DNA from: an uncultured Flavobacteriia bacterium
GTDB lineage: Bacteria > Bacteroidota > Bacteroidia > Flavobacteriales_D > Crocinitomicaceae
Direction: 5' to 3'
Assembly (NCBI GenBank): GCA_903873915.1
Contig: CAIQQH010000046.1
Span: 1 to 64,000 of the forward strand
DNA: 64,000 nt
Below the pieces are notes generated by a model. That model did not search any database. It worked only from the letters and a program-made list of their open reading frames with translations, and was not told the origin of the DNA. The position numbers and the translations under genes were made by a program. Numbering within the stretch: position 1 is the first letter of the stretch; each line of letters starts with the position of its first letter. Below are positions 7,019 through 42,769 of this stretch, piece after piece.

Positions 7019-8551
7019 TTATTTGATCACCACATTTTTAGTCGTTGTGATGCCGTTAGAAACAACTGTTACGATGTAGCTTCCTTTTGCCATGTCAGCA
7101 ACAGGGAAAGTAACCGTAGAAGTTCCGTTCAATGATTGAAGTGTTTTCGTTGTAATTACACGTCCTTGAAGGTCAAGGATAGAAACTTTGTAATCAGCGT
7201 TTGTTGCTTCGAAAGAAACATTCAACTCGTCAGATGCCGGGTTAGGGTAAACTGACAATGTAGAAGCAAGTTCTTCGTTAAGACCAGCCACAGCATTGAT
7301 TTCGAACGCATCCATCATCAATGTTCCAGCAGGGAAGCTTGTAACACCTGCGATAGCAGTACCGTTCACGAAGATCTCAACAGATCCGTCGCCGTATCCG
7401 CTGTCAAATCCATCACCGTAAGCATCGTATACTTCTAAACGGTAGCAGTCATTCACCAAGTTTGTAACAACATCTGTTTGAACGATTGTACCTGCAGCAG
7501 CAGCATCAGCACCATAAGATGGGCTTGTGTAGGCTACTTGTCCGTTGCTACGGAAGATTTTCCAAGAAGTCTCAGACTTGTATTGGTCAGTGCTAACCTT
7601 CACAGTAACACTGTTGTTCGCACCTGTGTTCGCGCGAGACAATGTTTTAGTGATCGTGTTGTTTGCTGTATTTTGGTCAGCAGACGTGATAGAGATTGTA
7701 ATGTTGTGTGAAGATGTTGGTGTAAACTGACCAATTGTTACATCTTGGTATCCGTATGTTGCCAAGTTTCCAGACCAGTTGTACTGTACGATTTGTGTAG
7801 CACCTTCAGTTGCAGTAATTGTACAAGCTGTCATTGGAGATGTTCCGTTGTTTTGCAAACGAACGATCAAATCAATAGCAGAGCAAGACTTCTCTTTTCC
7901 TTGGTAAGAAAGCATTGCGGGGTCATTTGTTTGAGACGCTGCTGGTGGACAAGAACCTACTGTTGAGTAAAGTGCAGCAGCAGCGAGCTGACCAACTTCA
8001 GTAACTGTTCTGTTTGGACAAATCTTGTAGATTGTTGGGAAGTATCCGATGTTGTAATCATTGTTGATTTGAGTCGCTGAAGCCGAAGCTGGATTTGCCA
8101 TAGGGAAAGGAATCTCGCCTGCACCTCCTGGATTGATCCAGTTTACAGTACCTGCAAGGCTTCCAGAACCAGTCAACATTGTTGCATCCGCAGTTGTTCC
8201 ATCACCTTCTACCCAAATAACCATTACATTATCTGTAGTTGATGCAGAAACGCCTGGGAACCCAGCGGGGCCATGTGCAGTGTACAATGCATCCAAAGCA
8301 CCACCGTTATGGTAGTTCCAACATGGTCCACACCACGTAGCAGAAACATCCATAAATACAGTATAACCCGCATCTAGATAGTCATACAAACGGTATGTAC
8401 CATTGTTGTTCAAACCTTGAGAAGCTAAGGCAGTTTGGTAAGCAGTCACAGTGTAATCTGGAGCGATGCTTCCAGCAGCCAACTGCGCTGTCGACGTGTT
8501 CATTGCCGCAATGCTGGAAATTGCAAGGGCAGAGAGTAATAGTTTTTTCAT
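7019..8551 (-). CDS. Secreted thioredoxin-fold protein with T9SS C-terminal sorting domain
   Basis: Exported protein of 510 aa from the ATG at 8551 (MKKLLLSAL, a normal signal peptide; a longer frame starting at 8578 is unlikely). After cleavage near TSTAQ it has a redoxin-like domain with the dithiol WCGPCW (C74, C77) in the expected context of an extended strand before an active-site helix, and an Ala/Gly-rich insertion before the PTIY cis-proline-like segment. The middle (about 215-420) is beta-rich, resembling CARDB and a secreted beta-sandwich with GDGFDSGYGDGS calcium-loop-like text. The last about 80 residues are a T9SS sorting domain: VYPNPASDELNVSFE, then the SILDLQGRVI block and a terminal KNVVIK. 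Export through SprA is therefore expected. Substrate unknown; an extracellular disulfide or peroxide role is only a guess. Confidence 0.88.
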   Translation of the reverse strand: MKKLLLSALAISSIAAMNTSTAQLAAGSIAPDYTVTAYQTALASQGLNNNGTYRLYDYLDAGYTVFMDVSATWCGPCWNYHNGGALDALYTAHGPAGFPGVSASTTDNVMVIWVEGDGTTADATMLTGSGSLAGTVNWINPGGAGEIPFPMANPASASATQINNDYNIGYFPTIYKICPNRTVTEVGQLAAAALYSTVGSCPPAASQTNDPAMLSYQGKEKSCSAIDLIVRLQNNGTSPMTACTITATEGATQIVQYNWSGNLATYGYQDVTIGQFTPTSSHNITISITSADQNTANNTITKTLSRANTGANNSVTVKVSTDQYKSETSWKIFRSNGQVAYTSPSYGADAAAAGTIVQTDVVTNLVNDCYRLEVYDAYGDGFDSGYGDGSVEIFVNGTAIAGVTSFPAGTLMMDAFEINAVAGLNEELASTLSVYPNPASDELNVSFEATNADYKVSILDLQGRVITTKTLQSLNGTSTVTFPVADMAKGSYIVTVVSNGITTTKNVVIK

Positions 8552-8676
8552 TCTTTGAATTTTTTTTGGTTTAGACAATGTTAACTTTGTTCAGCTAACG
8601 CGTTCGAATTTACAGCAAATTTTTATTCTAATCATTTTTTCATCACAATATTTATCTCAAAAACCAAAATTTCACC

Positions 8677-32841: not shown

Positions 32842-33516
32842 TTATTTATTTTTCTTTGGTTGAGTAGTGACAAAATCTTTCAGATAGAAGGGTTCAAAAT
32901 AGGCCACATCTTCAAATTCACCAACCTGATATTTGCGTGTTGCCTCAGCAACCTGTCCGGCGGCTGAGCAATGAATGGAATCGTCAAAGTATATGTTCCG
33001 ATTCGCCCAAACTGTTTTCAACTTTTCATTGGAATCTCCAGCGACAAGAAAAGGCTCATATTCTTGATAGGTATTTTCGTCCACAATGTCTGCGGAAATG
33101 GCTTTTAATAGGGAGATTTCACCGTCGTAAATGGCGCTAAAGATCTCCATTCTTCGCGCATCAATGGCCATACACAAGCGAGTGTTTGGATGTTTTTCTT
33201 GAGCTATTTGAGCAAGGGAACGCAATGAATCAATAGCAATAAGCGGAATCCCTAGCGCATAACACAGCCCCTTGGCCGTAGAAACACCGATTCTTAATCC
33301 CGTGTAGGAACCAGGACCTGAAGCAACAGAAATGGCAGATAGATCAGCCGGTGTCAAGTCTTGGCCAATTAAAACTTCCTGAATGAAATTGGTTAAACTC
33401 TCACTGTGGCTATAATCGTCTGTAAGGGTCTCTTTCAACGCTATCACGATGCCATTTTCAGACAATGCAACTGAACATGCTTTGGTCGAAGTTTCCAGAT
33501 GAAGCAATCGCATCAT
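32842..33516 (-). CDS. tsaB: tRNA threonylcarbamoyladenosine modification protein TsaB
   Basis: Partner of TsaD in making t6A at position 37 of tRNAs that read ANN codons. 224 aa from the ATG at 33516 (MMRLLHLETSTKACSVALS), with the ASKHA signature ASGPGSYTGLRIGVSTAKGL (about 69-88) and LCMAIDARRMEIFSAIYDG. A longer frame back to 33651 overlaps the regulator gene and is rejected. The start overlaps the regulator stop as ATGA, pointing to coupled translation. Confidence 0.9.
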   Translation of the reverse strand: MMRLLHLETSTKACSVALSENGIVIALKETLTDDYSHSESLTNFIQEVLIGQDLTPADLSAISVASGPGSYTGLRIGVSTAKGLCYALGIPLIAIDSLRSLAQIAQEKHPNTRLCMAIDARRMEIFSAIYDGEISLLKAISADIVDENTYQEYEPFLVAGDSNEKLKTVWANRNIYFDDSIHCSAAGQVAEATRKYQVGEFEDVAYFEPFYLKDFVTTQPKKNK

Positions 33517-34202
33517 GCAAGATATTCTAGTTTGAAACCAATCCCGTGTGCATTGGAGATGTGAATGCGGGAATCTTCTTTCAGGTACTTTCTGAGCTTG
33601 GTAATAAATACATCTAAACTTCGTCCGACAAAATAGTCGTCTTGTCCCCAAACGGCATTTAAGATCACATCACGAGAAACCACTTGGTTGATGAATTTAT
33701 ATAAAATCTTCAGAATTTGAGCTTCCTTCTTGGTGAGTGTTTTTTCAAATTTGGGATGCGTCAAGGTGAAGTTAATCGTATCAAAAATGTAATCTCCAAT
33801 TTTAAGCAAGGGACTTTCAGTTGGGACAAGTGAAATGTCGACACGCCTCAGCAATGCTGCAATTCGCAAGGATAATTCTTCTGAATGGAAAGGTTTGGTG
33901 AGGTAGTCATCACCACCAGATTTAAATCCTTCTACTTTATCCTCCGCCATTGATTTGGCTGTGAGAAAAAGTATCGGTATCGTGTTGTTTACTTTTCGAA
34001 CATCTCTAGCCAATGAAAAGCCGTCTTTTTTAGGCATCATCACATCAAAAATGCACATGTGATAGGTGTCATCATTGAAGTGCTTAAATCCTTCTGAACC
34101 ATCGCTGCACAGAGTCACAGAATATCCTTCTGAGCGCAATTGATCAGAGATTACAAAACCAAGGTTTGTATCGTCTTCTACAAGCAAGATTTTTATTTTC
34201 AT
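33513..34202 (-). CDS. OmpR-family response regulator, orphan
   Basis: DNA-binding regulator of 229 aa: receiver domain (about 1-120, acidic pair EDD near 10, phospho-acceptor Asp in IFDVMMPKKDG near 53, Lys in LTKPFHSEEL near 105) and a C-terminal winged helix (about 130-229, LTKKEAQILKILYKFINQVVSRD and RSLDVFITKLRKYLKED). No kinase gene is adjacent. The short phrase FITKLRKYLKEDSRIHISNAHGIGFKLE differs from the two PhoB-like regulators nearby, so it belongs to another branch. It is translationally coupled to tsaB. A leader with a hairpin lies upstream. Confidence 0.9.
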   Translation of the reverse strand: MKIKILLVEDDTNLGFVISDQLRSEGYSVTLCSDGSEGFKHFNDDTYHMCIFDVMMPKKDGFSLARDVRKVNNTIPILFLTAKSMAEDKVEGFKSGGDDYLTKPFHSEELSLRIAALLRRVDISLVPTESPLLKIGDYIFDTINFTLTHPKFEKTLTKKEAQILKILYKFINQVVSRDVILNAVWGQDDYFVGRSLDVFITKLRKYLKEDSRIHISNAHGIGFKLEYLA

Positions 34203-34371: not shown

Positions 34372-34433
34372 TTAATGAATTCTTAACAACATATAGTTCA
34401 TTGTTCATATCCTCTGTTTCTTTCGTATCTTTG
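34372..34433 (+). promoter_or_regulatory. Promoter of the orphan PhoB-like regulator with TTAA direct repeats
   Basis: TATCTTTG (34426-34433) with TTG at 34401 gives a full Bacteroidota promoter. Just upstream TTAATGAATTC and TTAACAACATA start at 34372 and 34383, 11 bp apart, the spacing of PhoB-type half sites. See the matching repeats before the next two genes. Confidence 0.5.
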
Positions 34434-34469
34434 AGTTGAAAAATTTGCATTCTAAAAAAGCGCAGCTAA

Positions 34470-35147
34470 ATGGTTTCAGTACTGGTCATTGACGATGAGG
34501 AAGATATCCGAGATATCCTTACTTATAATTTAAAAAAAGAAGGGTTTAATGCCTTTTCTGCAGAAAATGGTGAAAAGGGCTTAGCGCTGATAAAGACTGT
34601 TCACCCAGATTTAGTGCTATTGGATGTAATGATGCCAGGAATGGATGGTATTGAAGTATGCGAAGCCATACGGAATTTAGCCGGTCATGAACGAACATTG
34701 ATTTGTTTTTTGACGGCCAGAAGCGAGGATTACAGTCAAATTGCGGGTTTGGACGCTGGTGCTGACGATTATGTATCAAAACCGATTAAACCAAAAGTAC
34801 TCATCAGCAGAATTAAAGCCATGCTGCGCCGAAAAGGAATGGTTGAGCCTGACGAGAAAAGTACAGATGGTCGATTGGTGATTAATCGCGATAAATACCT
34901 CGTTGAAAAGAATGGGGAGGTCCTGCATTTGCCGCGCAAAGAGTTTGAATTGCTGGCACTTCTTGTTTCCCGACCGGGTCATGTGTTCGAACGAGATACG
35001 ATTCTTGAAAAAGTATGGGGTACGGATATCGTTGTGGGTGACCGAACGATTGATGTTCACATTCGAAAACTTCGTGAAAAAATCGGTGATAGCATGATCA
35101 AAACAATCAAAGGCATCGGGTATAAATTCGTCGATCAATCAGCATAA
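34470..35147 (+). CDS. PhoB-like response regulator (OmpR family)
   Basis: 225 aa. Receiver: DDEEDIRDILTYNLKKEGF (7-25), Asp in VLLDVMMPGMDG (about 52), Lys in VSKPIKPKVL (about 103). Winged helix: LPRKEFELLALLVSRPG (about 150) and the recognition segment GDRTIDVHIRKLREKIGD (about 188-205), followed by TIKGIGYKF. It is a close paralogue of the regulator at 40998, with the same acidic and recognition-helix text, but has no kinase beside it. It precedes the TonB-dependent receptor by 129 bp. Phosphate control is inferred from the family, not shown. Confidence 0.9.
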   Translation: MVSVLVIDDEEDIRDILTYNLKKEGFNAFSAENGEKGLALIKTVHPDLVLLDVMMPGMDGIEVCEAIRNLAGHERTLICFLTARSEDYSQIAGLDAGADDYVSKPIKPKVLISRIKAMLRRKGMVEPDEKSTDGRLVINRDKYLVEKNGEVLHLPRKEFELLALLVSRPGHVFERDTILEKVWGTDIVVGDRTIDVHIRKLREKIGDSMIKTIKGIGYKFVDQSA

Positions 35148-35178
35148 ATCCTTTTGTTAATTTCTGGTGTCTTCAAGG

Positions 35179-35255
35179 TTAATTCAATGTTAAATAGAAT
35201 TAATTATACTTTAACCTTCTAATAATTCGGGGATAAACCTGTAAGAGTTCCTTTG
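35179..35255 (+). promoter_or_regulatory. Putative activator-dependent promoter of the TonB-dependent receptor
   Basis: Four TTAA half sites begin at 35179, 35190, 35200 and 35211 (steps 11, 10, 11). The likely -7 box TTCCTTTG (35248-35255) deviates by one base from TAnnTTTG and there is no -33 TTG, as in promoters where an OmpR/PhoB regulator replaces the upstream contact. Confidence 0.5.
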
Positions 35256-35276
35256 TGCCACTAACACAAGGAGAAG

Positions 35277-38219
35277 ATGTCATTTCAAAATTTTTTAACT
35301 GCTATATTTATAATCACCTCATTTTTAGGGCTTTCTCAGACTGTTTCTATTCAAGGCAAGGTCACGGACGCAAAATCAGGGGAGACCATTCCAGGTGTAA
35401 AAATCATGGTAGAGGGTCAGGGCAAAGGCGCCTACACGGATTTCGATGGAAATTACAAAGTGCTCGATCTTCCAAATGGCACTTATATGCTCACCTTCAA
35501 ATACGATACCTACAAGGTGGATACGATTCGTGGCATTAAAGTAACGAATGCAGAACCAACCACTGTGAATGTGCTCTTGAAGTCGGAATTTCTCGAGCTC
35601 GGACCCATGCAAGTGACGCATACCATTGTGAAAGAGTCAACAGGTGGATTGCTTCAACTTCAACGAAACAGCTTGGTGGCTATCGATGGGATATCCTCAG
35701 AAACAATTAAACGTTCTCCAGACAGATCAGCATCTGATGCTTTAAAGCGCGTAAGTGGTGCAAGTATTCAAGACAACAAGTTTGCAATCATCCGTGGATT
35801 GAACGATCGATACAATGCGGCATATCTCAATGGCGCTCCGCTTCCAAGTTCTGAGTCGGACCGTAAGGCTTTTGCCTTTGACATCTTTCCTGTAAATATG
35901 CTCGACAACCTTACGATAGTGAAAACAGCATCTCCAGATTTACCGGCAGAGTTTGCAGGTGGAATCATTCAGATCAAAACAAAGGACATCCCAACAAAAA
36001 CATTTCATTCATTCAGCTTAGGAGGTGGTTACAATACCATTACAACATTTAAAGATCAACTGACGTATGAAGGTGGAAAGACAGATTGGTTAGGTGTCGA
36101 CGACGGGACAAGAAACATTCCAACGTCAATTCCGTCTCAAGCAGATTACCCCAATCTTATTGCGGATCAAGGAGCATTGGCAAAAACATTTGGATACGAT
36201 TGGTCACTTCAAAACAAGTCGTTTATGCCGAACATGAGTTTTCAATACTCAGGAGGATTTGCAAAAAAAATCAAAACAGCTGATTTTGGATTGATTGGGT
36301 CACTTTCCTACAACCGAACAAACAATTACAACGAAACGGAGCGTCGTTCATACACTGACAACCAAGCAGGTGGAACAGGTGCTTCGCAAATTGAGAATGA
36401 TTTATTTGATAAGGCGTACTCGACGCAAACATTGATGGGTTCAATGTTGAACATGAGTTTGAAGTTCAATGACAAGAACAAGATATCATTCAAGAATTTA
36501 TACAGCATCAATGCAGACGACCGAACCATTCTTCGTACGGGTGAAATCAATCCGCTCGAATCAAATCCCAACTTGCTACGTTCAAATGCACGTTGGTTTA
36601 CAGGCAACAACATTTATTCTGGCCAATTGATTGGTGAGCATACTTCTACAAATGAACGCTTGAAATTGGAGTGGGTTGGGGCGTATAGCAACATCGTGCG
36701 CACAATTCCGAATCTACGTCGATCTATTTATACGCGTTTAAAATATGTGAACGACCCAACCGATCCAAACCCATACGATACCGTTTACACAGCAAATATT
36801 GCTGGTTCGAACGTCGGTCCTGACTATGGAGGTGGAATGTTCTTCTCGCAAAACCGTGAAAACATAGCAAGTTTGAATGCCAATTTAAATTGGAAACTAG
36901 ATACAATCGCCAACATGGCCACAGAAATAAAATTTGGTGGTTTGTTCCAATACCGTAACCGTGATTTTCAAGCACGTCAATTGGGGTATACAACCTACGG
37001 GATTCCTGGAGGGTCTATTCAATTCAACCAACAGTTGCTTTACCTGCCAGAAGATTCAATTTTTCAGCAACAAAACATGGGCTTAATTAGTCCAGGTGTT
37101 GGAGGATTTAAATTGACAGATGGCACAAAACCTTCGGATGCCTACAACGCAAATTCACGAATTATTGCCGGTTATGTTGCCATGGATAACAAATTCGGAA
37201 AAATGGTGCGACTAAACTGGGGTGCACGCGTTGAACACTTTACGCAAAACCTTACTGCGCGTCGTTCGGATCAATCAGAACTTGTGATTGCAACAAAAAA
37301 GTTGGATGTACTTCCGTCTTTTAACCTCATCATTAGCCCAACGAAAAAGCAAAACATTCGATTGAGCGGTTCGCAGACATTGAATCGTCCAGAATACCGT
37401 GAGCTTGCTCCTTTTGCCTTCTATGACTTCAATACTCAGTTTGTATTGGCTGGAAATGATTCCTTGAAGCGTGCGCGCATTACCAACATCGATTTGCGCT
37501 ACGAATGGTTCCCAGGGAAGAGCCAAATCTTGTCGGGTACCTTCTTCTACAAGTTTTTCGAAAATCCAATAGAGCAAATCGCACGTCCTGATGTATCGAA
37601 TGAAATCTCTTATAAAAATGTACCTACTGCCGTGAATTATGGATTTGAACTTGATATGCGCGCATCGATTGGAAGCTTGTTCAAGTCAGATTCAACTTCT
37701 TTCTTGAACAACCTAAGCATCTACAGTAACCTCGGAATCATCCGATCGATTGTCGACGTATCGCAAAACATTGGAACACCATACCAAACGCGTCCACTTC
37801 AAGGTCAGTCACCTTACCTGTTTAATGGCGGTATCGTGTATCAAGATGAGAAATTGAACATGACGTACACGCTCAACATTAACCGAGTAGGTCCACGAAT
37901 CTACATCCTTGGGAGTATAATTCAACCAGATATTTGGGAAAAGAGCAGAACATTCCTTGATTTCCAAGTCGCAAAAATGTTCTTGGACGATAAGTTGGAA
38001 TTGAAAATCAATGTACAGAACATCCTCGCTCAAAATTTAATTTTCTACCAAAACAATTATGGGAACGAGCCTACAACAAAAGGTTTTAAACGCATGACAA
38101 ACGCATTGTTCCTATCCGATCCAGACAATAAAAATGGCTACGATAAAAATCTTGATGACATGATTTGGAATACGCGTTTTGGCCGTACAATATCTTTCGC
38201 CTTAACATACAAAATTTGA
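35277..38219 (+). CDS. TonB-dependent outer-membrane receptor with carboxypeptidase-regulatory N-domain
   Basis: Outer-membrane uptake receptor of 980 aa. Signal peptide MSFQNFLTAIFIITSFLGLSQ, a CarboxypepD_reg-like domain (about 24-105, SIQGKVTDAKSGETIPGVKI), then a plug domain (about 125-235) with ALKRVSGASIQDNKFAIIRG and VKTASPDLPAEFAGGIIQI, and a beta-barrel to the end (final residue after FALTYKI). The substrate is not visible from the sequence. It lies between two PhoB-like regulators and next to a large T9SS cargo, with a PhoB-like operator, so a phosphate-linked substrate such as organic phosphate is a reasonable but unproven guess. Confidence 0.93.
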   Translation: MSFQNFLTAIFIITSFLGLSQTVSIQGKVTDAKSGETIPGVKIMVEGQGKGAYTDFDGNYKVLDLPNGTYMLTFKYDTYKVDTIRGIKVTNAEPTTVNVLLKSEFLELGPMQVTHTIVKESTGGLLQLQRNSLVAIDGISSETIKRSPDRSASDALKRVSGASIQDNKFAIIRGLNDRYNAAYLNGAPLPSSESDRKAFAFDIFPVNMLDNLTIVKTASPDLPAEFAGGIIQIKTKDIPTKTFHSFSLGGGYNTITTFKDQLTYEGGKTDWLGVDDGTRNIPTSIPSQADYPNLIADQGALAKTFGYDWSLQNKSFMPNMSFQYSGGFAKKIKTADFGLIGSLSYNRTNNYNETERRSYTDNQAGGTGASQIENDLFDKAYSTQTLMGSMLNMSLKFNDKNKISFKNLYSINADDRTILRTGEINPLESNPNLLRSNARWFTGNNIYSGQLIGEHTSTNERLKLEWVGAYSNIVRTIPNLRRSIYTRLKYVNDPTDPNPYDTVYTANIAGSNVGPDYGGGMFFSQNRENIASLNANLNWKLDTIANMATEIKFGGLFQYRNRDFQARQLGYTTYGIPGGSIQFNQQLLYLPEDSIFQQQNMGLISPGVGGFKLTDGTKPSDAYNANSRIIAGYVAMDNKFGKMVRLNWGARVEHFTQNLTARRSDQSELVIATKKLDVLPSFNLIISPTKKQNIRLSGSQTLNRPEYRELAPFAFYDFNTQFVLAGNDSLKRARITNIDLRYEWFPGKSQILSGTFFYKFFENPIEQIARPDVSNEISYKNVPTAVNYGFELDMRASIGSLFKSDSTSFLNNLSIYSNLGIIRSIVDVSQNIGTPYQTRPLQGQSPYLFNGGIVYQDEKLNMTYTLNINRVGPRIYILGSIIQPDIWEKSRTFLDFQVAKMFLDDKLELKINVQNILAQNLIFYQNNYGNEPTTKGFKRMTNALFLSDPDNKNGYDKNLDDMIWNTRFGRTISFALTYKI

Positions 38220-38244
38220 CAGAAATTAAATCACTCTACAAAAG

Positions 38245-38277
38245 AGACCGCAACCCCTAGGTCTGCGGTCTTTTTTT
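38245..38277 (+). terminator. Terminator after the TonB-dependent receptor
   Basis: AGACCGCA (38245-38252) pairs with TGCGGTCT (38264-38271), followed by a run of seven T. Confidence 0.85.
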
Positions 38278-38298
38278 GTTAAAAATGTTTCCATTCAC

Positions 38299-38352
38299 TT
38301 AACATTGAGATAACTATTTCTTCTTTATAAGATAGGGTGACCTTAACCTTTG
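38299..38352 (+). promoter_or_regulatory. Putative PhoB-type operator and promoter of the T9SS cargo gene
   Basis: TTAACATTGAG (38299) and ATAACTATTTC (38310) are 11 bp apart. The -7 box is AACCTTTG (38345-38352), one base off TAnnTTTG, and no -33 TTG is seen. The distance between last half site and -7 (35 bp) is like that before the receptor (37 bp). Confidence 0.45.
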
Positions 38353-38402
38353 TTTGCCGTGAACAAGTGAAATTTGTCAAGAAATTAATCTAAACGAAAA
38401 AA

Positions 38403-40952
38403 ATGAAAAAAATCTATTCAATTGCTTTGGCTGCGTTTATTAGCAGTTGGAGTTTCGGACAAAGTTTTTTTGTCCCTACTACGTATCGCGGAGCATTTGC
38501 TCCAGCACCTACAGCACAATGGACCGACGGTTGGACAAACTGGGACCCACAAAACACGGCGTATGGAACATCTACAGTGAATGTAACTACGTCAATTACA
38601 AACAACACCACTTGGACGTCTAACAACGTTTACCTTCTTCAAGGACAAATCTATGTGAAGAATGGTGCAGTTCTAACAATTCAGCCTGGAACAATTATTA
38701 TGGGTGACAAAAATACTGCTGGTTCGGGATTGTTCGTTACTCAAGGTTCAAAATTGATTGCTGACGGAACTGTATCCAGTCCAATTGTCTTTACATCGAA
38801 TCAGCCTGCAGGTTCTCGCGCTTTGGGTGACTGGGGTGGTATCATCTTGATGGGTCGCGCAAGCAACAACAATCCTGGTGGTATTGCGAATGTTGAAGGA
38901 TTGGCTGTTTCACCTGATACACAATTTGGTGGTGGAACTAACCCTGATGACAATGACAACTCAGGAATTCTTCGCTATGTGCGTATCGAGTTTGGTGGAT
39001 ATGTATACTTGCCAAACAAGGAAATCAACGGTTTGACAATGGGATCTGTAGGTCGTGCTACCACTATCGACAATGTTCAGGTGTCTTTCTCAAATGATGA
39101 CGCATACGAATGGTTCGGTGGATCAGTGAACTGCCGTCACCTTGTATCTTATCGTAACCTAGATGACGATTTCGATACTGACAATGGTTTCTCAGGAAGC
39201 GTTCAATTCTGTGTAGCCGTGCGTGACCCATTGATCGCAGATAATCCATCAGTTTCTACATCAGAAGGATTTGAATCGGACAACGATGCAGCTGGATCGA
39301 CAAATTCTCCACAGACATCTGCAATTTTCTCGAACGTAACGCACATCGGACCCCTTCGTGGAAATACTGCAGCAACAGTTGCAACGGGGTACAGAAGAAG
39401 TGCTCGCCTTCGTCGTAATACTGGGTTGAAAATTTACAACTCTATCTTTATGGATAACCTTCGTGGTTTGCATATCGATGGTACAGCTTGTGAAGGTAAT
39501 GCAAACACAGGTGCCTTGAAATTTAAAAACAATGTTATTGCAGGACATTTAACAAACTATTCTGTTGAACGCAATGCAGGAAGTACATTCAACATCAGTA
39601 CGTGGTTTGGTCTAAACAGCAATGATTCAATTGTTTCTTCTGCAAACATTTTGATCGCGCCTTATGGAGCAACGCTAAACAACTACTTGTCACCAGATTA
39701 CCGTCCAACTGGTACTTCAGTAGCATTGAACAATATTTCATTTGCTGACAATACAATTGCACCTAAAGTAATCGTTGCGCCAACAACTACAGCAACTTAC
39801 ACGTACTGCCAAGGCGCAACTGCTACAGCATTGACTGCAACAGGAAACGCTGATTGTACAATCAAATGGTATACAACAGCGACAGGTGGAACTGCTATTA
39901 CAGCACCAACACCTTCAACAACAACAGCTGGTGTTACGAACTACTATGTGGCACAACAAAGTGCAGACGGAACAGAAGGTCCACGTGCCATGGTAACAAT
40001 TACTGTGAACGCAACGCCAGCGACGCCTACAATTTCTGCAAGCGGTGCAACATCTTTCTGTACGGGTGGATCTGTGGTATTGACTTCTAGCGAAGCTGCC
40101 GGAAATGTTTGGTCAAACACGGCAACAACAGCTGCGATCACAGTTTCAGCTACGGGAACATTCTCAGTAACGTATACAGACAACAATGGTTGTTCGGCAT
40201 CGTCTTCTGAAACAACTGTAAACGTAAGTAACGCACCAGTACCAACAATCAATGCATCTGCAACAGCTGCATGTAGCGGTGATTCAATCGTTCTTACGTC
40301 ATCTACAGCAGATTCTTACCTTTGGAGTAACAATGCGACATCACCGTCGATTACTGTTACAACTACTGGAAACTACACAGTAACTACGACAAATGCTGAT
40401 GCATGTGCTGGTGTTGGAACTTCTGCTCCAACTGTGATCACATTCGGCACTACACCAACTGCAAATGCAACGTTTACAGTGAATGGAAATGTGGTTACTT
40501 TCACAAACACTTCTACAGATGCAACATCATACTCTTGGGATTTCGCTGATTTCTCTGGATCATCTGCTGCTTCTCCAGTGCACGCTTTCGCTGCGAATGG
40601 TTCGTATGATGTAGTATTGACAGCCATCAACGGAAACTGTACATCTACATTTACAATCACTGTTGCCATCTCTGTAGGTTTGGAAGAATTTACAGGTCTT
40701 ACAGAAGTGGTTTTGTTCCCTAACCCAACAAGCGGTGAAATGTTCTTGACATTCTCTTCTGAAACAAATGAGACTGCTCAAACAATGATTATCGATCAAC
40801 TTGGTAAGGTTGTTTCTACATCTAGCATTGAAGTGAATGCTGGTGCAAACACAGTTGCCATCAATGCAGAACAACTTGGAAACGGTATGTACACACTCTT
40901 GTTAAACACAGGTCGTGGAAGCATCGTTCGCAAAATGATTGTTCAAAAATAA
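38403..40952 (+). CDS. Large secreted T9SS cargo with Ig-like and PKD domains, receptor-linked
   Basis: 849 aa. Signal peptide to WSFGQ. The first about 440 residues are a beta-rich region (INGLTMGSVGRATTIDNVQV, YEWFGGSVNCRHLVSYRNLD and DFDTDNGFSGSVQF) of a family widespread in Bacteroidota next to TonB-dependent receptors; a parallel beta-helix is likely. Then several Ig-like beta domains (about 465-680), each with a Cys pair, and a PKD domain (about 695-765, TSYSWDFADFSGSSAASPVHAF). The tail (LFPNPTSGEMFLTF ... RKMIVQK) is a T9SS sorting domain. No catalytic residues can be named. It probably acts with the upstream receptor at the cell surface. Confidence 0.88.
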   Translation: MKKIYSIALAAFISSWSFGQSFFVPTTYRGAFAPAPTAQWTDGWTNWDPQNTAYGTSTVNVTTSITNNTTWTSNNVYLLQGQIYVKNGAVLTIQPGTIIMGDKNTAGSGLFVTQGSKLIADGTVSSPIVFTSNQPAGSRALGDWGGIILMGRASNNNPGGIANVEGLAVSPDTQFGGGTNPDDNDNSGILRYVRIEFGGYVYLPNKEINGLTMGSVGRATTIDNVQVSFSNDDAYEWFGGSVNCRHLVSYRNLDDDFDTDNGFSGSVQFCVAVRDPLIADNPSVSTSEGFESDNDAAGSTNSPQTSAIFSNVTHIGPLRGNTAATVATGYRRSARLRRNTGLKIYNSIFMDNLRGLHIDGTACEGNANTGALKFKNNVIAGHLTNYSVERNAGSTFNISTWFGLNSNDSIVSSANILIAPYGATLNNYLSPDYRPTGTSVALNNISFADNTIAPKVIVAPTTTATYTYCQGATATALTATGNADCTIKWYTTATGGTAITAPTPSTTTAGVTNYYVAQQSADGTEGPRAMVTITVNATPATPTISASGATSFCTGGSVVLTSSEAAGNVWSNTATTAAITVSATGTFSVTYTDNNGCSASSSETTVNVSNAPVPTINASATAACSGDSIVLTSSTADSYLWSNNATSPSITVTTTGNYTVTTTNADACAGVGTSAPTVITFGTTPTANATFTVNGNVVTFTNTSTDATSYSWDFADFSGSSAASPVHAFAANGSYDVVLTAINGNCTSTFTITVAISVGLEEFTGLTEVVLFPNPTSGEMFLTFSSETNETAQTMIIDQLGKVVSTSSIEVNAGANTVAINAEQLGNGMYTLLLNTGRGSIVRKMIVQK

Positions 40953-40997: not shown

Positions 40998-41684
40998 ATG
41001 GAAAATTTAAAAGGACATACCATTCTTCTTGTTGACGACGAGGCAGATATTCTCGAATTTCTAACGTACAATTTGAAGAAGGAAGGGTATAAGGTTTTTA
41101 CAGCATCCAATGGAGAAGATGGCGTGAAAATGGTGCAGCAATATTCACCATCACTCATTCTAATGGATGTAATGATGCCTGTAATGGATGGGATCGAAGC
41201 GTGTCAGTTTATACGCAAAGACCTAAACATTACTCAACCGATCATTGCATTCTTAACATCGCGCGCTGAGGATTATGCTCAAATTGCAGGATTCGAGGCA
41301 GGTGCAGATGATTATATTTCAAAACCAATTCGTCCAAGATTGCTAATCAGCAAAGTTGAATCACTCTTGCGGCGTTTAACTCGTCCCATTGCGGCGGAAG
41401 AAGTGGTGAGTAATGCACGTGTCAAAATTGACCGTGAAAAGTTCATCGTTGAAGTAGAAGGAAAGAAAATCCTTCTTCCTAAAAAAGAATTTGAATTACT
41501 TGAATTGCTTGCAAGCAGACCAGGTAAAGTATATACAAGAGAACAAATTTTAACCATCGTTTGGGGAAATGAAACGATTGTTGGTGAACGAACTATCGAT
41601 GTTCACATCCGTAAATTGCGTGAAAAGCTAGGAGATGATTATATTCGCACTATAAAAGGAGTCGGATATACATTCAGCGAATAG
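40998..41684 (+). CDS. PhoB-like response regulator, paired with a kinase
   Basis: 228 aa OmpR-family regulator. Receiver with LLVDDEADILEFLTYNLKKE (10-29), Asp in LILMDVMMPVMDG (about 56), and Lys in ISKPIRPRLL (about 107); winged helix with LLPKKEFELLELLASRPG and GERTIDVHIRKLREKLGDD (recognition helix). It is followed by its sensor kinase with a 1-bp overlap (TAGTG), as in phoBR operons. High similarity to the orphan regulator at 34470 indicates a duplication. Phosphate specificity is inferred from the architecture and operator-like repeats. Confidence 0.9.
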   Translation: MENLKGHTILLVDDEADILEFLTYNLKKEGYKVFTASNGEDGVKMVQQYSPSLILMDVMMPVMDGIEACQFIRKDLNITQPIIAFLTSRAEDYAQIAGFEAGADDYISKPIRPRLLISKVESLLRRLTRPIAAEEVVSNARVKIDREKFIVEVEGKKILLPKKEFELLELLASRPGKVYTREQILTIVWGNETIVGERTIDVHIRKLREKLGDDYIRTIKGVGYTFSE

Positions 41685-42769
41685 TGAAAAACCTCAAACC
41701 GATACACTTACTCATTGGCGGAAGCGCCATCACCTTCATTTTAACCTTCATTGTAACGGTTATCATTGATTATCAAGTGCTCAATTTTCCGTTTTGGGTA
41801 TTGGTGGGGCTCCCGTTTCTATCTGGATTGATTTCCTTTGGTGTATTCTATTTCTTCATTACATATTTCATCAATGATCGATTAAAGCTTTTATATCGCT
41901 CCATTCGAAAGGGAAAAATCACTGCAGTGAATGAACCTAGGTTTCGAATAACGGATGATGTAATTGCTGATGCAGAAATTGAAACTAATCGCTGGACGGA
42001 AGAACGAAATGTAGAAATCTCCCGTTTGAAAGAACAAGAGGAATTTCGTCGTGAGTTTCTTGGAAACCTTGCCCACGAATTAAAAACACCCGTTTTCTCC
42101 ATTCAAGGATATGTGGATACCTTACTGGAAGGGGGACTAGAAGATGAATCAGTAAACCGAATGTTTCTTGAGCGCGCCTCTAAAGCTACAGATCGCATGG
42201 CACATATCCTCGAGGATTTGGATCAAATTACTCGCCTTGAAGCAGAATCTTTGCGTTTGGAAATCCGTTCTTTTGACATTGTTGAACTTGCAAAAGAGAT
42301 TATCGAATCGCTCGACATGAGAACAAAAGAAAAGGAAATTTCTGTCATTTTCTTAAAGGACTATAATTCAATTTATGTCGATGCAGATCGTTCAAAAATA
42401 GCCCAGGTGTTAACCAATTTATTGGTCAATTCTATTTTTTACGGAAATCAAAAAGGTGAAACCATAATTCGCTTTCACCAAATGGATGAAATATTGACCA
42501 TTGAGGTTTCTGATAATGGTCTTGGAATCGATGAGGCGCACCTGCCTCGTCTGTTTGAACGTTTTTATCGCGTAGAAAAAAGCCGAAATCGCAATGAAGG
42601 AGGTTCAGGACTAGGATTGGCAATCGTTCGCCATATTGTTGAATCACATGGTCAATCAATTTCTGTGCGCAGCACTGTGGGCATTGGAAGCACATTCTCT
42701 TTTACGCTTGATCGAAGTAAAAGTCAGTCGGGAGGACTATATTCTTCTCGTGGGGTTCAAATCAAATAA
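41684..42769 (+). CDS. PhoR-like sensor histidine kinase
   Basis: Membrane sensor kinase of 361 aa. GTG start at 41684 overlaps the regulator stop. Two transmembrane helices near the N-terminus (about 8-28 and 33-55, LLIGGSAITFILTFIVTVII and LVGLPFLSGLISFGVFYFF) with only a very short loop between them, so no large periplasmic sensor domain. Then the phospho-acceptor His in LGNLAHELKTPVFSIQG (about 130-146), and ATP-binding N box (LTNLLVNSIFYG), G1 (DNGLGIDEAHLP), and GGSGLGLAIVRHIVE. Typical of PhoR-like kinases that sense the state of a transporter rather than an external ligand. Confidence 0.9.
   Translation: MKNLKPIHLLIGGSAITFILTFIVTVIIDYQVLNFPFWVLVGLPFLSGLISFGVFYFFITYFINDRLKLLYRSIRKGKITAVNEPRFRITDDVIADAEIETNRWTEERNVEISRLKEQEEFRREFLGNLAHELKTPVFSIQGYVDTLLEGGLEDESVNRMFLERASKATDRMAHILEDLDQITRLEAESLRLEIRSFDIVELAKEIIESLDMRTKEKEISVIFLKDYNSIYVDADRSKIAQVLTNLLVNSIFYGNQKGETIIRFHQMDEILTIEVSDNGLGIDEAHLPRLFERFYRVEKSRNRNEGGSGLGLAIVRHIVESHGQSISVRSTVGIGSTFSFTLDRSKSQSGGLYSSRGVQIK

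Follow-up and report, generated by a model that had tools for sequence, protein, structure and literature searches.

The gene cluster analysed here is of a type known from Flavobacterium, as is its response to phosphate. In Flavobacterium johnsoniae, the phoBR cluster PUSIV (Fjoh_0541-0549) combines PhoB/PhoR genes with a TonB-dependent receptor and with FII, a secreted protein of the pectin-lyase type, and upon phosphate depletion the receptor is up by 8.0, FII by 9.9 and PhoB by 3.1 log2 units; the paper describes no promoter elements (PMC8115612). Repeats in 11-nt steps are known elsewhere, from the PHO box of E. coli PhoB and Bacillus PhoP, where proteins of the OmpR/PhoB family bind head to tail along tandem direct repeats of CTGTCAT and replace the upstream promoter element (PMC4415409). 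Among Bacteroidota regulators, PhoP of Riemerella anatipestifer is up in phosphate starvation and binds a motif with a TTTAACA core, for which the text gives no 11-bp repeat or promoter geometry (PMC9603813). In the open-licence PMC literature we found nothing that describes PHO boxes in a phased array for Bacteroidota, the Riemerella motif alone being relevant. In Caulobacter crescentus, ElpS (cc0170), a T2SS-dependent lipoprotein, is a phosphate-starvation-induced secreted surface protein whose gene lies beside that of the TonB receptor cc0171, and its overproduction raises extracellular phosphatase activity (PMC2996285).

The window, by which we mean the whole 64,000-nt stretch of DNA that was analysed, contains a cluster in which two PhoB-like regulators flank a receptor and a surface protein, referred to below as the cargo:

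33513-34202, minus strand: RprY-like regulator gene, adjoining the RR1 region
34470-35147, plus strand: RR1, PhoB-like response regulator with no adjoining kinase gene of its own
35277-38219, plus strand: TonB-dependent receptor with CarbopepD_reg_2, Plug and OMP_b-brl_3 domains
38403-40952, plus strand: cargo, a T9SS-exported surface protein with an FII/ElpS-like N-terminal domain, Ig/PKD domains and a type A sorting tail
40998-41684, plus strand: RR2, PhoB-like response regulator
41684-42769, plus strand: PhoR/PnpS-like histidine kinase

We name RR1, RR2 and the kinase "-like" only, because all of their PhoB/PhoR family scores fall under the curated cut-offs. RR1 and RR2 reach 208.6 and 206.8 bits against TIGR02154 (cut-off 296.2) and 202.7 and 203.6 bits against NF053854 (cut-off 270), which leaves both outside the PhoB equivalogs, and the kinase scores 250.9 bits against NF046044 (PnpS) and 225.2 bits against TIGR02966 (PhoR), both below cut-off. 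The two response regulators are 55% identical and have the same recognition-helix stretch, RTIDVHIRKLREK, in which the RprY-like protein differs.

The receptor has the same three Pfam domains as that of PUSIV (PF07715, PF13715 and PF14905) and, as there, adjoins phoB/phoR-like genes. Both clusters place a secreted protein by the receptor, here putatively of the FII type. The cargo has a predicted strand-rich fold (model pLDDT 91), which together with its position in the cluster would fit the neighbouring FII protein (Fjoh_0546); in a fold search its best PDB matches were pectate-lyase/PL6 helices at E >0.002 and low TM-scores, none of them confident. The clusters differ in the two PhoB paralogs that flank the receptor-cargo pair here, and in the cargo itself, which has a T9SS sorting tail, whereas Fjoh_0546 is described as a lipoprotein (PMC8115612). 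The comparison supports the view that this cluster is the equivalent of PUSIV. The Caulobacter findings suggest in their turn a receptor-cargo partnership similar to that of ElpS and its TonB receptor, with the difference that the cargo here would be sorted by the T9SS.

Receptor orthologs were found in 106 of 149 related genomes. Among the 80 named receptor loci, a cargo homolog lies downstream of the receptor in nearly all, and PhoB/PhoR-like genes often stand beside the pair, downstream of the cargo or in divergent orientation ahead of the receptor. Some of the records carry doubtful names: a genome titled Glaciecola amylolytica (L051, CP034120.1) has a cluster of the Bacteroidota type and probably bears the wrong name, and many MAGs entered as Chitinophaga pinensis or Chryseobacterium gleum seem to be misnamed as well.

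The original prediction had connected TTAA repeats ahead of RR1, the receptor and the cargo into a PhoB-type regulon, and the TTAA and ATAA coordinates that it gave are all right when checked on the sequence. The sites, as we now define them, are as follows:

34372-34386, no strand assigned: TTAA-N7-TTAA pair ahead of RR1 (34372, 34383), 12.5 bits, a weak and doubtful member
35179-35236, plus strand: tandem receptor operator, six 11-bp half-sites (35179, 35190, 35200, 35211, 35222, 35233) on the conserved grid
35248-35255, plus strand: degenerate receptor -7 box, TTCCTTTG, the commonest -7 variant among receptor-ortholog promoters
38299-38346, plus strand: cargo operator, half-sites 38299, 38310 and 38343 (-74, -63 and -30)
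38369-38376, plus strand: proposed cargo -7 box, GAAATTTG, in phase with the grid, replacing the 38345-38352 of the original prediction

Exact 11-bp pairs are scarce in the window, which has 238 TTAA words and only three such pairs, namely the regulator pair and two steps of the receptor array. Bare patterns give no enrichment genome-wide: a TTAA triple occurs at 27 places in this genome and at 66 for the reversed control, and, in hand sums, TTAACAN5TTAACA occurs 53 times in the genus and 76 times in its control, as against 125 and 51 in other genomes. Short patterns are too weak for this purpose, which calls for promoters of orthologous genes aligned by their -7 boxes. Sixty-five non-redundant receptor promoters, from a set thinned by shared words only, contain 77 TTAA pairs in 11-bp spacing, with 4.7 expected from dinucleotide shuffles, and 69 cargo promoters contain 49, with 4.8 expected; further spacing peaks lie at 22 bp and, for the cargo, also at 33 bp. 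Gene neighbours taken as negative controls gave 47 pairs for 12.6 expected, and are unclean as controls because several of them are phosphate genes.

With the last -7-like box of each promoter picked blind to TTAA and its TTTG taken as the reference point, the (T/G)TAA half-sites pile up at -19, -30, -41, -52, -63 and -74, and hardly any lie elsewhere within that span. On this grid fall 137 of the 218 half-sites in about 57 receptor-ortholog promoters (about 20 expected if uniform) and 126 of 173 in about 53 cargo-ortholog promoters (about 16 expected), counts that are not of independent events because the sequences share ancestry. In control promoters the figure is 23 of 179, for 16 expected, a contrast that is slightly favoured by the removal of promoters with a TTAA pair from the controls. 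In most receptor and cargo promoters, three to five half-sites match the grid exactly, and the few anchorable promoters of Chitinophagales (n=3) and Sphingobacteriales (n=8) keep to the same one, with 12 of 14 half-sites in the former and 16 of 20 in the latter.

The promoters themselves are unusual in the same, family-wide manner, which bears out the observation of the original prediction that those of the receptor and cargo have imperfect -7 boxes and no -33 element. The -7 box starts with TT in 28 of 57 receptor promoters and with TA in 13, while 57 of 116 controls have TA. TTG at -27 occurs in none of the 57 receptor and none of the 53 cargo promoters but in 9 of the 116 controls, where TTG is commonest around -27, the place in which the -33 element belongs. 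It is this place that the -30 half-site occupies in the receptor and cargo promoters. Read from sequence, the fixed phase and the absent -33 element are a signature of activator-dependent promoters, at which the regulator would replace the upstream contact.

The receptor promoter of this genome is a full example of the arrangement. The original prediction had stopped at four half-sites (35179-35211); ATAA at 35222 and 35233 extend the array to six, which at -73, -62, -52, -41, -30 and -19 from TTTG 35252 fill all six grid positions, 1 base of slack being permitted at the two farthest. None of 20,000 dinucleotide shuffles equalled the real promoter. At the cargo, the box at 38299/38310 stands, and the -7 box formerly assigned to it (TTTG 38349) is probably wrong, being off the grid with a score of 0. 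With TTTG 38373, which lies in GAAATTTG 30 nt ahead of the cargo ATG, the half-sites are exactly on the consensus grid, at a shuffle p of ~0.0007 that is optimistic because this box was picked after the grid had been seen; the same -7 variant recurs among cargo orthologs.

A weight matrix trained on the receptor promoters of other genomes, with this genome and its near-identical relatives left out, ranks the receptor, cargo and RR1 sites first, third and fourth among the 127,962 positions of the window. Its second-best match, at 8568-8587 on the minus strand (14.7 bits), lies just ahead of the likely start of a gene for a T9SS-tailed protein (7019-8578, minus strand) that is divergent from a Sir2 gene.

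Further phosphate genes are preceded by the operator too, among relatives and, in the case of the PiT operon, in this genome. Among the neighbours found by boxes alone are PstS, a phosphate-selective porin (Porin_O_P), DUF47 (PhoU_div), a PlcP-like metallophosphoesterase and a glycerophosphodiester phosphodiesterase (GDPD/GlpQ). The pstSCAB genes could be considered only in relatives, because our genome shows no pst. A TTAA pair lies upstream of the true pstS in 9 of 15 cases and upstream of orphan PstS-like genes in 0 of 15, the latter being an easy control because many of them have coding sequence upstream. Among DUF47-PiT operons, 17 of 22 reach 12 bits, including that of this genome, which has a 16.7-bit site at -75/-64 from the nearest suitable TTTG. 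In some members of the genus (e.g. L226) the DUF47-PiT pairs stand at about -57/-46, and a second geometry is therefore possible. Upstream of the PlcP-like gene of our own genome no box was found. Of the 54 genomes that have both the receptor and a PhoU-domain gene, 21 (L238 and L239 among them) carry the two less than 10 kb apart, and in the two loci examined the PhoU-domain genes are Na/Pi-cotransporter-PhoU fusions. Elsewhere, TTAACACATCATTAACA lies about 68 nt ahead of a DUF1573 gene without obvious phosphate role (G000:C45:9410, L202), and the 17-mer of this site, TTAACACATC(A/G)TTAACA, is found in many genomes of the genus with either A or G in the middle.

We consider it likely, with a probability of about 0.82, that the receptor and cargo promoters belong to a Bacteroidota PHO regulon and depend on an activator. 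The phased half-sites, the boxes at phosphate genes and the likeness to PUSIV support the original prediction in its view that a PhoB-type regulon governs a surface uptake unit, and the half-site at -30 with the missing -33 element supports its suggestion that the regulator replaces the upstream promoter contact. Comparative evidence for membership is strong for the receptor and the cargo, and the regulator's own promoter is doubtful.

The operator could be real and yet serve another OmpR-family regulator, such as the RprY-like protein (33513-34202), in response to a stress other than phosphate. Direct repeats of 11 bp are common among OmpR/PhoB-family regulators, an RprY-like gene lies next door, and the genus-conserved 17-mer precedes a DUF1573 gene with no obvious role in phosphate. 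We nevertheless regard such a regulator as improbable, in that the boxes recur ahead of phosphate genes, the receptor-cargo pair is accompanied in distant loci by PhoB/PhoR-like genes rather than the RprY-like one, and PUSIV answers to phosphate (PMC8115612). Much less credible still is that the regulator represses these promoters, or is one input among several, instead of being a class II activator. The differing geometry of the genus DUF47-PiT boxes exemplified by L226 would suit it, as would a pair that overlaps the -7 box at some divergent PhoB-like genes (L085, L114 and L115; TTAACTTTG), but the receptor and cargo promoters have a degenerate -7 box, no -33 element and a half-site on -30, and the PUSIV genes rise upon phosphate depletion. 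Finally, chance pairs in AT-rich intergenic DNA, or a general helical phasing of A/T tracts, are a very improbable source of the receptor and cargo arrays: intergenic DNA is indeed 65% A+T and the bare-pattern genome counts do not exceed their control, but shuffles yield only about 5 pairs in either promoter set, the phase to the -7 box is held to a single base, and the grid is missing from control promoters.

The caution of the original prediction that chance is possible, refuted by pair counts and grid for the receptor and cargo, still holds for the RR1 promoter, where chance may well explain 34372/34383. The pair is present and is the fourth-best matrix match, but it is off the grid relative to the perfect -7 box TATCTTTG (TTTG 34430) and on it only with respect to a poor box (TTTG 34445, p 0.023). 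A relative with a 97% identical regulator has lost one of the two half-sites, and in the more distant members of the genus that were examined the pair was not found. We have accordingly downgraded RR1 autoregulation through this pair, on account of its register with the good -7 box and its poor conservation; judged by sequence, the pair may be either a weak operator or a product of chance. The pair over the -7 box in L085, L114 and L115 may represent autoregulation of those PhoB-like genes.

In the PHO-regulon reading that we prefer, phosphate limitation would lead the PhoR-like kinase (41684-42769) to phosphorylate RR2, RR1 or both, and the regulator would bind head to tail along up to six direct-repeat half-sites, (T/G)TAA(C/T), in steps of 11 bp. 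Regulator bound at -30 would recruit RNA polymerase to the degenerate -7 box, a role we propose because this half-site sits in the place of the sigma factor's -33 element. The receptor and the FII/ElpS-type T9SS surface protein could then jointly help to capture phosphate or phosphorus compounds. The predicted binding resembles that at the E. coli and Bacillus PHO box, from which the operator differs in its half-site, in its number of units (up to six) and in its register, which is fixed to the Bacteroidota -7 box. Riemerella PhoP has a similar core motif and broader targets (PMC9603813).

How phosphate would be sensed is a separate matter. In our genome, which is 87.5% complete, PhoU and PstS were not found and no PstB match exceeded the cut-off, and thus it shows no canonical Pho system of pstSCAB and phoU; PhoU is absent from most genomes of the genus as well. 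PiT is the probable route of phosphate into the cell, and PhoR lacks the usual Pst-PhoU signal, unless the missing part of the genome encodes it. The DUF47 protein is a candidate substitute for PhoU. One could imagine that PiT and the PhoU-divergent DUF47 protein, preceded by a box, replace the Pst-PhoU signal to PhoR, and that both PhoB paralogs act on a single phased operator array and so grade the response, a speculative scheme that we think rather unlikely as a whole.

The analysis gives the Bacteroidota PHO box a concrete definition, with 11-bp half-sites in fixed register to the -7 box and in replacement of the -33 element, from which phosphate regulons become predictable across this abundant phylum. 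It also connects a widespread TonB receptor and its FII/ElpS-like surface protein with phosphate scavenging, and it raises the testable question of how phosphate is sensed by PhoR where neither Pst nor PhoU can be detected in the genome.
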